This document shows, in pieces, positions 4,951-19,917 of a DNA stretch of 41,295 nt (the first letter of the stretch is position 1; every line of letters starts with the position of its first letter). Source of the DNA: Acidithiobacillus sp. (GTDB lineage: Bacteria; Pseudomonadota; Gammaproteobacteria; Acidithiobacillales; Acidithiobacillaceae). A program made the translations under genes and the position numbers. The stretch is from the NCBI GenBank assembly GCA_027365525.1, contig DAHXMJ010000030.1, forward strand, positions 1 to 41,295, written 5' to 3'. Below the pieces are notes generated by a model that searched no databases, was not told the DNA's origin, and saw only the letters and a program-made list of their open reading frames with translations.

Positions 4951-5859
4951 CTACGATCCATGGCGACGCCGACGCCAGGACGACCATGCATCCCGGAGGG
5001 GATGGTGTTTTTTCTTCAGGTAGGTGACCGAGGCGCCCTGCTCCATTTTCCGCAGGGCTTCCTCGACCATCTGCCTCGATTCGCCGGCCAGCTGGCGACG
5101 CCCGGCATCCGGGGACAGCATCGGCAGAAAATGGACCCGCAGGGTTAGGGGAGCAGCAGCCATGAGACGCCAGAGATGTCCGGCCAGACTGTCTTCCCCA
5201 ATAAATGGGCAGATGCGGTCCGCCTTCCCGGGATGCTGGATGTCCTCATAGCGCAGTGCGACGGGCAGAACCGGTGCTCCCGCCGACACGGCTGATTCAA
5301 AAGGAGCTGCATAGAATTCGCCAACACCGGTGCCATCACTGGTCGTTCCCTCCGGAAATACGGCTACAATCCGGCCCTGGCGCAAAACATCCGCCGCCTG
5401 TTTCAGGATACGCTGGCTTGCACGTGCGTCCTGCCGGTCAATAAACAGGGTACCCAGCCATTGGGCGAGCAGACCAAAAAAAGGCCAGGACTGCATTTCC
5501 GTCTTGGCAACAAACTGGCCCGGCCCAAGGCTGGCCAGGGCAAGAATATCCAGATAGGAAACGTGATTGGCAGCCACCAGAACCGCCTCTTCAGGGGGGC
5601 AGCCCTCAACCTTCAGGCGGATCCCCAGAATGCCCAAGGCAACGCGGCTCCACCAGCGAAACGTACGGAGGCTCGTGGCATCAATTTTTTTCCTGCGGGC
5701 ATAGGTCCACCAGGCCAGTGGAAACGCGAGCAGCAGATGGGCTGCCAGCATGGGCAGCCGCCAGATCCGGCGGTAGAAACGGGGACCACTCCGGTACTGG
5801 AAACGCCCTGGATAGGGGATGAGCCGGAACGCTTCCGTCCGGCGCCGGGACTGGTTCAT
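4951..5859 (-). CDS. olsA: 1-acyl-glycerol-phosphate-type acyltransferase, likely lyso-ornithine lipid O-acyltransferase
   Basis: A PlsC-superfamily acyltransferase of 302 residues. The catalytic NHxxxxD motif reads NHVSYLD and the acceptor-binding motif reads FPEGTTSDG. A hydrophobic segment near the N-terminus (MLAAHLLLAFPLAWW) should anchor it in the inner membrane. The start at 5859 overlaps the stop of the upstream OlsB-like gene by four bases (ATGA), so it is translationally coupled to it. Because the partner is an OlsB-type N-acyltransferase, I infer that this enzyme adds the second fatty acid to lyso-ornithine lipid. From sequence alone, ordinary PlsC activity (lysophosphatidate to phosphatidate) cannot be excluded. 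A longer reading upstream is open but would run deep into olsB. Confidence 0.85.
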   Translation of the reverse strand: MNQSRRRTEAFRLIPYPGRFQYRSGPRFYRRIWRLPMLAAHLLLAFPLAWWTYARRKKIDATSLRTFRWWSRVALGILGIRLKVEGCPPEEAVLVAANHVSYLDILALASLGPGQFVAKTEMQSWPFFGLLAQWLGTLFIDRQDARASQRILKQAADVLRQGRIVAVFPEGTTSDGTGVGEFYAAPFESAVSAGAPVLPVALRYEDIQHPGKADRICPFIGEDSLAGHLWRLMAAAPLTLRVHFLPMLSPDAGRRQLAGESRQMVEEALRKMEQGASVTYLKKKHHPLRDAWSSWRRRRHGS

Positions 5860-6632
5860 CTGACGGCTTCTACAGGATCCAGGAAGCGCTGCTGGTAGCG
5901 GGGTGTAATCAGACGGGACTCGCACCAGACAAAGAAATCGGCGCAATGGAACTGCGGATCCCAGTAGGGTTCCCCGCCAATACGCACTCCAGCCCTCAGA
6001 TAGCCTTTCAGAAGGGAAGGCAGCACAGCAGCTTCCGCGTCTGCCTGGGGGTTAAAGCCTGGAACCGGACGAAGCGGAAATACCCTCTGTTCCGGTGGTG
6101 TGAGATGGTCCTGCAGATTGCGGTACAGAGCGCCCAATGCCGGCCCATCCGTACTGTGCACACTGGCACAGCCCATCAGGTAGTCAATCTCCCACATGGC
6201 CATCGCTTCCGCCAATCCGGACCAAAGAAGGACAATGACGGCTCCCTGGCGGTAATCCGGGTGCACGCAGGAGCGGCCAAGTTCCATGATCCTGGAACGT
6301 AGGGCCAGCAGCCGCGAAAGATCAAATTCAGTCTCGGCGTAATAGCGCCCGACCCGGTGCACCTGTTCTGGCAGAAAGAGGCGGTATGTCCCCACGACTT
6401 CCTGCCGGACTTCATCCTCGACAATCAGATGTTCACAGAAGGGATCGTACTCATCCTGGTCGAGGCCCGGTGCCCCGCTAAGCTGGGCACCATACTCGGA
6501 ACTGAAGACACGGTAACGCAGCCGCTGGGCGGCCTCCACCTCATCCTGGTGTCGGGCCAGATAGAGGCGCAGGGACCGCTCACCTTTGCGGGTCTGATTT
6601 TCCACATCACCATGGGGCTGGGCATTGAGCAT
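5856..6632 (-). CDS. olsB: GNAT-fold ornithine-acyl-ACP N-acyltransferase (OlsB / hemolysin-like family)
   Basis: A 258-residue protein of the OlsB/COG3176 'hemolysin' family, which transfers a 3-hydroxy-acyl chain from acyl-ACP to the alpha-amino group of ornithine, the first step of ornithine lipid synthesis. Family landmarks are AQRLRYRVFSSEYG near residue 35, the DEYDPFCEHLIV segment, VVGTYRL, ELGRSCVHPDYR and GCASVHS. The ATG has an AGGGAGA ribosome site at normal spacing. It is first in a two-gene operon with the PlsC-type gene (4-base overlap). The promoter region carries a tandem Pho-box array (6685-6724), fitting the known phosphate control of ornithine lipid synthesis in other proteobacteria. 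Confidence 0.87.
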   Translation of the reverse strand: MLNAQPHGDVENQTRKGERSLRLYLARHQDEVEAAQRLRYRVFSSEYGAQLSGAPGLDQDEYDPFCEHLIVEDEVRQEVVGTYRLFLPEQVHRVGRYYAETEFDLSRLLALRSRIMELGRSCVHPDYRQGAVIVLLWSGLAEAMAMWEIDYLMGCASVHSTDGPALGALYRNLQDHLTPPEQRVFPLRPVPGFNPQADAEAAVLPSLLKGYLRAGVRIGGEPYWDPQFHCADFFVWCESRLITPRYQQRFLDPVEAVR

Positions 6633-6668
6633 CTAGGGCTCTCCCTGTTTCAGGTAAAACTGGCTAAC

Positions 6669-6724
6669 AGTATGACCCGGAAATGTGAAAAAGGTGCGAC
6701 AGTTTCATGAAGATTTGACTTCAG
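6669..6724 (-). promoter_or_regulatory. Tandem Pho-box array and -10 element upstream of olsBA
   Basis: Read on the minus strand, four heptamers repeat every 11 bp: CTGAAGT (6718-6724), TCTTCAT (6707-6713), CTGTCGC (6696-6702) and TTTTCAC (6685-6691), separated by CAAA, GAAA and ACCT. Exactly 10 bp after the last heptamer lies CATACT (6669-6674), a 4/6 match to TATAAT. PhoB half-sites are 7-mers with an 11-bp repeat that replace the -35 element, so this looks like a PhoB-activated promoter. Transcription would start near 6662, giving a leader of about 30 nt. The pstS promoter in this window has the same geometry. Confidence 0.68.
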
Positions 6725-6785
6725 TTTGCATGATTTCATGCCTTTAATGATACGCAAAGTTCATGCGGAAATCCAAAACGGCTGG

Positions 6786-8102
<1,317 letters not shown>

Positions 8103-16687: not shown

Positions 16688-17575
16688 TCAGCGGTATGCT
16701 CCCATGCGCCGCAGGCGGCGGACCATGATCCACCGTCCACCAAGAATCAGCAGCAGAATGACCAGGGTGATCAGGAAAGCGGCACTGAAAGCGAGGATGT
16801 GCGCTTCTCGGAACGGCTCATTGATAAATGTCCAGATCACGTAGGTAAGATATCCTATGGGCTCTTTCGTGAACTGGCCGTTCCACATGTAGTCGGACCA
16901 TCCGGCCGTATAGATCAGCGGGGCGGTTTCCCCCATGGACAGGGCCAGGGCATAGGACATCCCCGTCATCACTGCTGGCAGCGCACCAGGCAACAGGATG
17001 CGCAAAATGACGGTTCCTTCCCCAGCCCCAATTCCAAATCCAGCCTCCCGCACTGCCTGGGGGATATTGTTCAGGGCCAGTTCCGTGGTCCGTGCGATAT
17101 AGGGCAGAAGCATGATGCCCAGCGTGATGATGCCTGCCGCTACGGAAAACTGCCAGCCAAGGTACACCACCATGGTAATGTACCCCACATAACCCAGCAC
17201 AATAGACGGCACTCCAACAAGAATGTCGGAGAGAAAGCGGAGGACTTTTCCCCCTGCACTGCTGCCAAACTCGTTGAGATAGATGCCGGCCGCAATTCCT
17301 ATGGGTGTGCTAACCAGCAGCGATCCCAGCGACAGGACCAGAGTGCCCTCAATGGCGTTCTTCAGCCCCCCCCCTATACCGGTACTGGTTTCGGTGAGCA
17401 GCCGTACATTGAGGCCAGGAAGTGCCTTGTAGAAAACATCTCCGATAATGGACAGGAAGGCCAAGGCCACTACCGCAAAGCTAGCTACCACAAAAACTGA
17501 ACCGGCTACACGGAACAGCCTGCGCCTGACTGACAGGCGCAGCCGGCGTACCGGTAGTACAGACGGGTTTTCCAT
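16688..17575 (-). CDS. pstA: Phosphate ABC transporter permease PstA
   Basis: Second membrane permease of the high-affinity phosphate transporter. About six hydrophobic segments are visible. The ABC-permease coupling loop reads EAGFGIGAGEGTVILRILLPGALPAV in two blocks, followed by the PstA signature ALSMGETAPLIYTAG. From the ATG at 17575 the protein is 295 residues. I chose this start because AAAGGA lies six bases upstream, the same ribosome site sequence as for pstC. An ATG at 17596 overlaps the pstC stop (ATGA) and would add seven residues. It is the last gene of the cluster; pstB, normally next, is absent. Confidence 0.94.
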   Translation of the reverse strand: MENPSVLPVRRLRLSVRRRLFRVAGSVFVVASFAVVALAFLSIIGDVFYKALPGLNVRLLTETSTGIGGGLKNAIEGTLVLSLGSLLVSTPIGIAAGIYLNEFGSSAGGKVLRFLSDILVGVPSIVLGYVGYITMVVYLGWQFSVAAGIITLGIMLLPYIARTTELALNNIPQAVREAGFGIGAGEGTVILRILLPGALPAVMTGMSYALALSMGETAPLIYTAGWSDYMWNGQFTKEPIGYLTYVIWTFINEPFREAHILAFSAAFLITLVILLLILGGRWIMVRRLRRMGAYR

Positions 17576-17592
17576 GGCGGTCCTTTCTGTGC

Positions 17593-18552
17593 TCATGTGC
17601 GTGCCTGGGCCAGCCACAGGATCATCCTTGCCAGCAGATTCACCACCACAGAAAGCAGGAGGAGCACGAGTGCGATTTCCGCCAATGCCTCAACCGCCAT
17701 GTTGGTGGGATCCTGAAGGGCGCTCTCCAGCTGGGAAACAATGAAGGCTGCCATGGTGGAAATAGGCGTATAGATGTTTCTGGGCAGATAGTTAAGGGCA
17801 TTGCCACTCACCATGACTACCGCCATAGTTTCCCCAAGGGCACGCCCCAGGGCAAGAATGGAAACCCCGATGACGGTTGTGCGCAGCTTGGGAAGGACGA
17901 TGTGCCAGAATACTTCCAGACGGCTCAGGCCAAGAGCCAGGCCGGCCTCCTTGAGCGTGGATTCCGTCGCGCTGATCGACTCCCTCACGGTGGCTGAAAT
18001 CAGCGGGATGATCATAAAAGCCAGAACAATCGCCGATGTCAGAAGACCATACCCGCTTCCCGGGTTTCCCCCCAGAAACGGGATAAAATCCAGGTGTTTC
18101 GCCATCCAGGGAAACACGGATGTCCCCAGAAATGGGATCAGGAGGGCATACCCCCACAGGCCAAAAACCACACTGGGAATGGCGGCCAGAAGATCCACCA
18201 GAAACGTCAGGGGTCCGGACAGAACTTTGGGCAGGGATTCTGCCAGAAAATAGGCGGTTCCAACCGCTGTCGGGAGTGCAAACAGCAGCGACAGCAGCGC
18301 GCTGGCGAGGGTACCCACTACCAGAAACCAGATACCGTAACGGGCGCCAGGCATGACTTCCTGTCCATGGACCGTTACCGGATTTCCGTACAAATTCCCC
18401 AGATTCCAGTTGTTTGTCCAGAGAAAATGGATCCCGTTGTAATGGATTGCGGGCGAGGAATAAACCACCAGAAAGAGTACCAGAAGCAGAAGGGAGAGGG
18501 GCAGGAAACTTGCGGTAGTTACCAGACCAATCCGGAATAGCGGTAATTTCAT
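17593..18552 (-). CDS. pstC: Phosphate ABC transporter permease PstC
   Basis: First membrane permease of the Pst transporter, 319 residues from the ATG at 18552, which follows AAAGGA at good spacing. The N-terminal membrane segment is LSLLLLVLFLVVY. A periplasmic loop, several further membrane segments and the permease coupling loop EAGLALGLSRLEVFWHIVLP follow. The PstC signature ALGRALGETMAVVMVSGN is intact. The gene starts 132 bases after the pstS stop, and that gap holds two strong hairpins. It overlaps or abuts pstA depending on which pstA start is used. Expression should follow the Pho-box promoter upstream of pstS, reduced by the hairpins. Confidence 0.95.
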   Translation of the reverse strand: MKLPLFRIGLVTTASFLPLSLLLLVLFLVVYSSPAIHYNGIHFLWTNNWNLGNLYGNPVTVHGQEVMPGARYGIWFLVVGTLASALLSLLFALPTAVGTAYFLAESLPKVLSGPLTFLVDLLAAIPSVVFGLWGYALLIPFLGTSVFPWMAKHLDFIPFLGGNPGSGYGLLTSAIVLAFMIIPLISATVRESISATESTLKEAGLALGLSRLEVFWHIVLPKLRTTVIGVSILALGRALGETMAVVMVSGNALNYLPRNIYTPISTMAAFIVSQLESALQDPTNMAVEALAEIALVLLLLSVVVNLLARMILWLAQART

Positions 18553-18580
18553 GCAGGGTCCTTTCCGATGGCATCTCCGC

Positions 18581-18622
18581 AAATAATAAATCCGCGGGGC
18601 CAATACAGCAAAGACCCGCGGA
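18581..18622 (-). terminator. Hairpin with T-rich tail between pstS and pstC (attenuator)
   Basis: TCCGCGGG (18591-18598) and CCCGCGGA (18615-18622) form a perfect 8-bp stem with a 16-base loop. On the minus strand the stem is followed by a T-rich stretch (TTTATTATTT, 18581-18590). It lies between pstS and pstC, where partial termination would give more binding protein than permease. Confidence 0.6.
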
Positions 18623-18640
18623 CATTTTCAGCCTCTGGCA

Positions 18641-18665
18641 GAGGAATGGCCTGAAAGGCCACCTC
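18641..18665 (-). terminator. Second hairpin just after pstS stop
   Basis: On the plus strand GAGG-AA-TGGCC-TGAAA-GGCCA-CCTC forms a 5-bp plus 4-bp stem with a two-base bulge and a five-base loop, 20 bases after the pstS stop codon. There is no T-run. A stable hairpin here could protect the 3' end of pstS mRNA made by termination at the next hairpin. Confidence 0.4.
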
Positions 18666-18684
18666 TCTCCCAATCTGGCGTTTC

Positions 18685-19773
18685 TTACTTGATCATCGCA
18701 ATTTGCTTTCTGGACAGTGTCACAGCACTGCCTGGCAGAGGGACAAAATTGACGGCCTTCATGAAGTGGGGTGCATTTCCGCCCCTTGCATCAAGGGCCC
18801 AGTTCAGGAACTCCCGCATGGCATCGGCAGTCTGGGCGTTGGGCTGATCCTTCTTCACAATGGCGTATTCATAGTTGATGATGGGGTAGGAATTTGCGCC
18901 GGGTGCGTAGACCAGACTGATGCGCTCGTCAGCAGGAGTCTTGGACACCATCTGTGCCGCGGCTGCCTTGGCCGTTTCCACTGTGGGAAGGACAAATTTC
19001 CCGGCGCGATTCTGCAGCATGGCTGTACCAAGACCGGCCTTGTCAACCGGTTTCTTCCAGCTGATTCCGATATACGCTACTCCGTAGGGCGTTGTCTTCA
19101 GGGCCTGAACCATCCCGGGATTGCCAACAGCTCCAATTCCGCCCTGGACATTGGGCCAGCTCACCGTTGTGCTGTAACCGATATTCTTGGCCCAATCCGG
19201 GGTCGTATCAGAAAGGTAGGTGGTAAAAATGAAGGTATCGCCGGAACCATCTGTACGGTGGACCGGAACAATCCTGTGATTGGGGAGTTTCACGCCCGGA
19301 TTCAGCCTAGCAATCTGGGGATCATTCCAGCTGGTGATTTTGCCAGAGTAGATCCCGGCAAGAACGGACCCGGAGAGATTGAGATGCCGGTTGTTCAGGC
19401 CAGGAAGATTGTAGTTGATCATCTGTATGGAAATGGCCAGCGGAATGTTCAGCATGTCAGGATGCATTTTCACCTGGGCATTGGCCATATAGGCATCGGA
19501 GGCGCCAATCTGGGCCACGCCGGAAATGGCCTGGGCAATACCCGTGCCGCTGCCAGTTCCCTGCGTTGTGATTTTTATGTTGGAGTGCCGCTTGGTGTAA
19601 ACAGGTACCCACAGATTGAAAAGGGGGTACAGCAGGGTTGATCCGGTCTCCAGCAGGCTGACCGCCGGGGCAGCAGAAGCCGGCATGGAAATGGCGGTTC
19701 CCATCCCCAGAAGGGAAACAAGAGCGGCTCCCTTCACCGCACGGGAAAAAGCTTTCTTGGAATAAAGCAACAT
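18685..19773 (-). CDS. pstS: Phosphate-binding periplasmic protein PstS
   Basis: The periplasmic phosphate receptor, 363 residues. The N-terminus is a signal peptide: Lys/Arg-containing start, hydrophobic AALVSLLGMGTAIS, then a likely cut after ASA at residue 34. The mature protein opens with the family segment LLETGSTLLYPLFNLWVPVY. TQGTGSGTGIAQ and VHRTDGSGDTFIFTTYL contribute phosphate-binding Ser/Thr/Arg/Asp residues. The ATG at 19773 follows GGAGG; a reading 23 codons longer would place the signal peptide internally. It heads pstS-pstC-pstA, with a Pho-box array about 90-145 bases upstream. Confidence 0.95.
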   Translation of the reverse strand: MLLYSKKAFSRAVKGAALVSLLGMGTAISMPASAAPAVSLLETGSTLLYPLFNLWVPVYTKRHSNIKITTQGTGSGTGIAQAISGVAQIGASDAYMANAQVKMHPDMLNIPLAISIQMINYNLPGLNNRHLNLSGSVLAGIYSGKITSWNDPQIARLNPGVKLPNHRIVPVHRTDGSGDTFIFTTYLSDTTPDWAKNIGYSTTVSWPNVQGGIGAVGNPGMVQALKTTPYGVAYIGISWKKPVDKAGLGTAMLQNRAGKFVLPTVETAKAAAAQMVSKTPADERISLVYAPGANSYPIINYEYAIVKKDQPNAQTADAMREFLNWALDARGGNAPHFMKAVNFVPLPGSAVTLSRKQIAMIK

Positions 19774-19861
19774 AAAACCTCCGAAGATGGCCAATGCAGA
19801 TAACTCTGTCTTTGAGATAGCCCCAGGGTAGATCCAGCCCAATCCTCTACCTCAGGCCAGA

Positions 19862-19917
19862 AACCTACCAGAAGTTCGTGACTCTATCATGAATTTTTTA
19901 TTGCATTTTTATGACAG
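19862..19917 (-). promoter_or_regulatory. Tandem Pho-box array and -10 element upstream of pstS
   Basis: On the minus strand four heptamers repeat every 11 bp: CTGTCAT (19911-19917), ATGCAAT (19900-19906), AATTCAT (19889-19895) and GAGTCAC (19878-19884), with spacers AAAA, AAAA and GATA. The first is an exact match to the PhoB half-site. Ten bp after the last heptamer is TAGGTT (19862-19867), a poor but correctly placed -10. The start site would be near 19855, giving a leader of about 80 nt. Control by PhoB under phosphate starvation is the expected behaviour for pstS. Confidence 0.78.

Follow-up and report, generated by a model that had tools for sequence, protein, structure and literature searches.

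In the PhoB-activated promoters of E. coli, such as those of pstS and phoA, 11-bp direct repeats replace the -35 element and lie ~10 bp before the -10 element. The E. coli Pho box has been printed as CTGTCATNNNNCTGTCAT (PMC11828411). In Acinetobacter, as at the locus described here, a Pho box near the E. coli consensus lies 5' of olsB, and aminolipids are formed at low phosphate in a PhoR-dependent manner (PMC11828411); the Acinetobacter olsA gene is described there as having no Pho box and as not phosphate-responsive, whereas here olsA directly follows olsB, and the two cases differ also in the four tandem repeats found here and in the kind of proof, which is experimental in Acinetobacter and drawn from sequence in the present work (PMC11828411). 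In Pseudomonas putida BIRD-1, OlsB and OlsA are reported to be phosphate-induced and PHO-dependent and are accompanied by PlcP, the term 'Pho box' being absent from the main text of that report (PMC5082522). Vibrio cholerae resembles the present proposal in that ornithine lipid synthesis at low phosphate is PhoB-dependent, but the enzyme described is the bifunctional OlsF and not OlsBA (PMC12186959).

Control of ornithine lipids by phosphate and PhoB is already known in other proteobacteria, to which the Acidithiobacillaceae would add a well-supported new example and no new mechanism. Ornithine lipids of Thiobacillus thiooxidans have reportedly long been known, to go by paper titles. A phosphate-starvation response with PhoR/PhoB is already in print for Acidithiobacillus, ornithine lipids are listed for pit-lake samples in a paper that mentions Acidithiobacillus, and acid mine waters, the habitat of such bacteria, are described as capable of being phosphate-poor (PMC4478699). 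Within the literature covered, which leaves many subscription papers outside, no paper was found that pairs Acidithiobacillus with olsB or with a Pho box. A family-wide putative PhoB site 5' of olsBA predicts that ornithine lipid is a phosphate-starvation lipid in the Acidithiobacillaceae; a search of 29 family genomes gave no betaine-lipid gene of the DUF3419 (BtaA) type, and ornithine lipid may therefore be a main phosphorus-free substitute in the family.

The stretch of DNA analyzed here (the window; 41,295 bases) comes from a host that its relatives place in the Acidithiobacillaceae and not among the alphaproteobacteria. It contains a 56-bp element that we interpret, with a probability of about 0.88, as a PhoB-activated promoter driving an operon of two genes, olsB and olsA. 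The features of this region are as follows.

4951-5859, minus strand: olsA, lyso-ornithine lipid O-acyltransferase (NCBIfam OlsA); likely start at 5859, judged from the translation
5856-6632, minus strand: olsB, L-ornithine N(alpha)-acyltransferase, 258 aa (NCBIfam OlsB and Pfam PF13444)
6641-6646, minus strand: probable ribosome-binding site AGGGAG, 8 nt 5' of the olsB ATG, read from the sequence and visible in the alignment
6669-6674, minus strand: -10-like hexamer CATACT; CATAAT or CATACT in 23 of 26 aligned sequences
6675-6684, minus strand: 10-bp spacer from the last heptamer to the -10, constant in length in the 26 aligned
6685-6691, minus strand: heptamer 4, TTTTCAC; TTGTCAT or TTGTCAC in 24 of 26 aligned
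6696-6702, minus strand: heptamer 3, CTGTCGC; a CGCAC starting within it is shared by all 26 aligned
6707-6713, minus strand: heptamer 2, TCTTCAT, from sequence and alignment
6718-6724, minus strand: heptamer 1 (distal), CTGAAGT; YTGTCAY in 23 of 26 aligned
6786-8081, minus strand: purA, the upstream neighbour, on the olsB strand

Read along the minus strand from 6724 to 6669, the element consists of four heptamers at exact 11-bp steps, followed by 10 bp and then CATACT; the reverse complement of 6669-6724 is CTGAAGT CAAA TCTTCAT GAAA CTGTCGC ACCT TTTTCAC ATTTCCGGGT CATACT. It lies on the olsB strand inside the 153-base gap between purA (stop 6786) and olsB (start 6632), 36 bases 5' of the olsB ATG. 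The heptamers, their spacing, the 10-bp gap and the -10-like hexamer reported in a preliminary description of this DNA all match the sequence exactly. The best family matches of the gene pair are to OlsB and OlsA, though these fall under the strict equivalog cut-offs. For 5856-6632 the best NCBIfam match by far is OlsB (165.5 bits, E 1.9e-48, below the 350-bit equivalog cut-off), with 123 bits to PF13444; for 4951-5859 OlsA is best by E-value (2.4e-36; 125 bits, under its cut-off of 300), and the generic AGP_acyltrn model comes second, above its own cut-off. Going by the model names, it is Rhodobacter- and Brucella-type proteins for which the OlsB and OlsA equivalog cut-offs seem to have been chosen. 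The gene olsA probably starts at an ATG within a 4-nt overlap (ATGA) with the olsB stop, and it lies directly 3' of olsB in 25 of 26 array-bearing loci, the remaining locus (L026) stopping at a contig end. Because hemE converges on olsB-olsA from the opposite side, the transcript probably comprises olsB-olsA alone.

When both strands of the window were scanned, the olsB array was the top site with four repeats at an 11-bp step, its heptamers matching YTGTCAY at 4, 5, 6 and 6 positions (21 of 28). Dinucleotide shuffles of the window contained a mean of 0.105 sites scoring at least 21 (18 of 200 shuffles had one), and when the 153-base intergenic region alone was shuffled 6 of 5000 sequences reached the score. 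The window copy is thus only moderately improbable as a chance event and, taken alone, suggestive and not decisive, since shuffled windows sometimes reach its score. A strict consensus scan of 6600-6850 reported no sigma-70 -35/-10 pair; PhoB promoters need no strict sigma-70 promoter. A promoter-like TTGGAT-N18-TATCAT element that the strict scan does not report lies upstream of the array at 6776-6747 on the minus strand, and a loose pattern gives a similarly placed match in eight of nine purA-linked upstream sequences; this element (6747-6776) is a possible second promoter.

The family was then represented by 29 genomes, of which 27 contain olsB (the two without it are 85% and 71% complete), and by a named collection of 30 loci, 20 of them in the family (titled Acidithiobacillus, Igneacidithiobacillus and, in two cases, Proteobacteria bacterium) and the other 10 distant. 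Among 27 distinct Acidithiobacillaceae upstream sequences from four genera, 26 show the array 5' of olsB in a gap-free layout. The preliminary description had proposed conservation of the 11-bp heptamers in close relatives as a test of its reading, and they are kept in these 26; this conservation settles what a single sequence only suggested, namely that the array is real and not a chance occurrence. The 11-bp step is specific, with a mean score of 23.1 of 28 in the 26 arrays, whereas steps of 8-10 and 12-16 average 16.2-17.8, and in relatives the YTGTCAY score reaches 26 of 28. The sole sequence without an array belongs to a second olsB copy in G005 (A. ferrivorans DSM 22755; L029, L049). This second copy has 79% identity, no olsA match in the fetched locus and, in the last bases 5' of its ATG, a resemblance to the other olsB copy. 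Genome G027, excluded from the set of 27, likewise has an R1 match (R1 being a model built from the olsB arrays) upstream of olsB. The olsB match in that genome (L028; G027:C43) begins only at residue 70-71, and the distance from array to residue is ~35 bases shorter than elsewhere; either an assembly error or a deletion would account for the short match.

The array of L011, for example (CTGTCAT AAAA CTGTCAT CAAA GTGTCGC ACTC TTGTCAT, 10 bp, CATACT), carries CTGTCATAAAACTGTCATCAAAGTGTCGCACTCTTGTCAT, close to the printed E. coli Pho box. The third repeat departs from the consensus throughout: CGC takes the place of CAT in all 26 aligned sequences, TGYCGC is present in 24 of the 26, and CGCAC is invariant and is not explained by the Pho consensus. 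The olsB arrays differ in this TGYCGC repeat, and in the gene they precede, from the E. coli pstS and phoA promoters.

Comparison of the window with its sister locus L003 suggests that the array is still under constraint in this lineage. The two differ at 1 of 56 positions within the array, as against 10 of the 62 that separate it from purA (Fisher p 0.009) and 144 of the 377 four-fold degenerate sites of purA plus olsB (p 1e-9), which is why the array still looks constrained; constraint is not limited to it, however, as the bases leading from the array to the ATG are conserved too (2 of 36 differ). These same two arrays are the two most degenerate of the 26.

The window provides a comparison site of its own, a Pho-box array in front of pstS, which at 19917 on the minus strand is the only other independent site in the window scoring at least 20.

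16688-17617, minus strand: pstA (TIGR00974, 198 bits, cut-off 193)
17593-18603, minus strand: pstC (TIGR02138, 248 bits, cut-off 196)
18685-19842, minus strand: pstS, listed from TTG 19842, likely ATG 19773 (TIGR00975, 346 bits, cut-off 205)
19862-19917, minus strand: pstS Pho-box array, CTGTCAT AAAA ATGCAAT AAAA AATTCAT GATA GAGTCAC, 10 bp, TAGGTT

In 12 of 30 fetched pstS loci, the window included, a -10-like hexamer lies 10 bp past an array of four repeats (in one relative, GTGTCAC AAAA GTGTCAT AAAA AGTTCAT GATA GTGTCAT, 10 bp, TATGAT); several more have two strong repeats, and nine of the 30 have no site scoring at least 20 of 28. From the 12 pstS arrays, the window's own among them, a pstS matrix and a second model, R2, were built. 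With the pstS-only matrix the olsB array is the top-ranked site in 25 of 25 relatives' loci, and in the window it ranks second after pstS, or third on heptamers alone; the scores are 6.1 for the window and 7.5 for L003 and range from 22.1 to 37.0 for the other 24 arrays. In all 26 loci the best R2 match falls inside the olsB array, with E below 0.002 in 23 and only about 0.1 in the window, L003 and L018; many of the 26 matches are partial and shifted by one repeat. Both R2 and the pstS matrix recover the pstS array of the window, though it is among their 12 building sequences. Run at E up to 5 on the assembly that contains the window, R2 returned the pstS array and a site before an OprD-like porin gene and missed olsB (150 of 282 candidates scored); R1 on the same genome at E up to 0.5 recovered olsB together with the porin site and missed pstS (150 of 367 candidates scored).

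The regulator itself is encoded in this genome. PhoB reaches 309 bits (cut-off 296), with PhoR, PstB and PhoU in the same cluster on contig C17, and PhoB exceeds its curated cut-off in 27 of the 29 genomes, this one included. The protein contains the stretch RTVDVHIRRLR, presumably the recognition helix, which recurs unchanged in the solved PhoB chains 3t72, 1qqi and 1gxp; these chains we take to be E. coli PhoB. The system is split between contigs, pstSCA lying in the window at 16688-19917 on the minus strand whereas pstB, phoU, phoR and phoB are on C17. The phoB locus of this genome (L062) shows no array scoring at least 20 of 28, and the same holds for 26 of the 30 loci that the PhoB search gave. 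The family-wide conservation, the PhoB and PhoR genes and the pstS array within the window together support the PhoB-type promoter layout put forward in the preliminary description. As the arrays of the window and L003 are the weakest, R2 misses olsB in this genome and phoB has no array of that score, the case for control by PhoB is strongest for the family and extends to this organism through descent and continued constraint.

If the E. coli scheme applies, phosphate starvation would cause PhoR to phosphorylate PhoB, which would bind the tandem 11-bp direct repeats, standing in for a -35 element, and recruit sigma-70 RNA polymerase to the CATACT/CATAAT -10 located 10 bp past the last repeat. 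Judging from the pathway, OlsB and OlsA would then make the phosphorus-free ornithine lipid, a possible stand-in for phospholipid, and lipid replacement at low phosphate would be expected in this organism.

Three other readings of the array were weighed against this one. That the repeats are a chance match in an AT-richer intergenic region is scarcely credible and was rejected: an expectation of 0.105 sites per shuffled window, with 18 of 200 shuffles reaching the score, speaks for it, but conservation in 26 of 27 upstream sequences, specificity for the 11-bp step and the constraint seen against L003 all speak against it. It is more difficult to set aside, though we consider it very improbable, that the olsB repeats are bound not by PhoB but by another OmpR-family response regulator, for example one responding to acid or envelope stress. 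Such regulators are numerous in the family (the window's genome gives nine matches to the PhoB model, and one relative as many as 31), a PhoB-like winged-helix protein of unassigned role itself has an upstream site of this type, and the invariant CGCAC at the third repeat deviates from the Pho consensus; yet like arrays stand 5' of pstS in the window and in relatives, a matrix derived from pstS finds the olsB arrays, the heptamers fit the printed Pho box, and PhoB carries the same RTVDVHIRRLR as the solved PhoB chains.

The degeneracy of the window copy leads to another interpretation, improbable in our estimation, in which the site is decaying in this lineage: an ancestral Pho box would now be weak or non-functional, and olsB would be read mainly from an upstream promoter or by read-through from purA. 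The low scores of the window and L003 with the pstS matrix (the lowest of the 26), the failure of R2 to recover olsB in its own genome, the TTGGAT-N18-TATCAT element at 6776-6747 and the finding of no terminator-like site in 6600-6850 would all fit such decay, whereas a decaying site would not be expected to differ at only 1 of 56 positions when its flank differs at 10 of 62 (Fisher p 0.009) and four-fold sites at 144 of 377 (p 1e-9). Within the preferred reading of the array as a PhoB-activated promoter, a more elaborate history can be sketched that we regard as speculative and on the whole unlikely: phosphate control of ornithine-lipid synthesis would be ancestral to all Acidithiobacillaceae, the CGCAC-containing array would be specialised and might admit a second signal (acid), and the lineage of the window would have weakened its distal repeats toward a less phosphate-dependent olsB.

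Beyond the family the association of olsB with such an array appears to recur in places. In the sister family one of two genomes (G171) has olsB (65% identity) with an upstream four-repeat array scoring 22 of 28, and the other (G054) gave no OlsB match. Among the ten distant loci (L050-L059), a Burkholderiales locus has CCGTCAT CAAA CCGTCAT CGAT ATGTCAT TTCG CTGCCAC, 10 bp, TAATGT (L052:4871-4926), ~119 bases 5' of the olsB match; in L059 two repeats match (12 of 14) at 115 bases, and in the other eight no pair of repeats reaches 12 of 14 within 900 bases of the start of the olsB match. R1 was also run, with stricter filters, against 143 genomes of the class, and at E up to 1e-4 it matched the window's own genome alone; at that threshold, then, R1 does not reach past the family.

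The R1 search of the 29 family genomes also yielded 32 further sites, which were selected and read. In 28 of the 32 a script finds TANNNT or CANNNT exactly 10 bp after the last repeat; in the four scripted misses (L150, L162, the first site of L173, and L176) the chain had overrun the last clear repeat and the distance is 10 bp by eye, and in L163 and L166, which are among the 28, the scripted chain end is wrong and the true end, judged by eye, also gives 10 bp. This regularity is independent of R1, as all 32 matches stop short of the columns that describe the -10 in the model (positions 51-56). The downstream gene was taken as the longest ORF starting within 600 bases, an assignment that may be wrong for the L156, L174 and L169 second sites. 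Ten of the downstream proteins were scanned. For two of them, both MFS transporters, the top NCBIfam model is the phosphate:H+ symporter, its cut-off not being reached, and the other eight are the phosphate-selective porin type Porin_O_P, OprD-like, a TonB receptor, ExbB-like, a PhoB-like winged helix, an ABC ATPase, Sel1 repeats and a weak NHL match.

In L151-L160, L169, L173 and L174, Pho-type arrays stand 5' of ExbB-like, TonB-receptor-like, PhoB-like winged-helix and beta-propeller-like genes, some of them clustered (unscanned proteins being named by eye), and a phosphate-controlled TonB uptake system in Acidithiobacillaceae is possible. The OprD-like porin gene of the window's own genome, with its upstream Pho-type array, lies at L150:114-1430 on the minus strand (G000:C50). 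Omp40 of Acidithiobacillus is described as increasing at low pH and under phosphate starvation, and the porin at L150 may be related to this phosphate- and pH-responsive protein.
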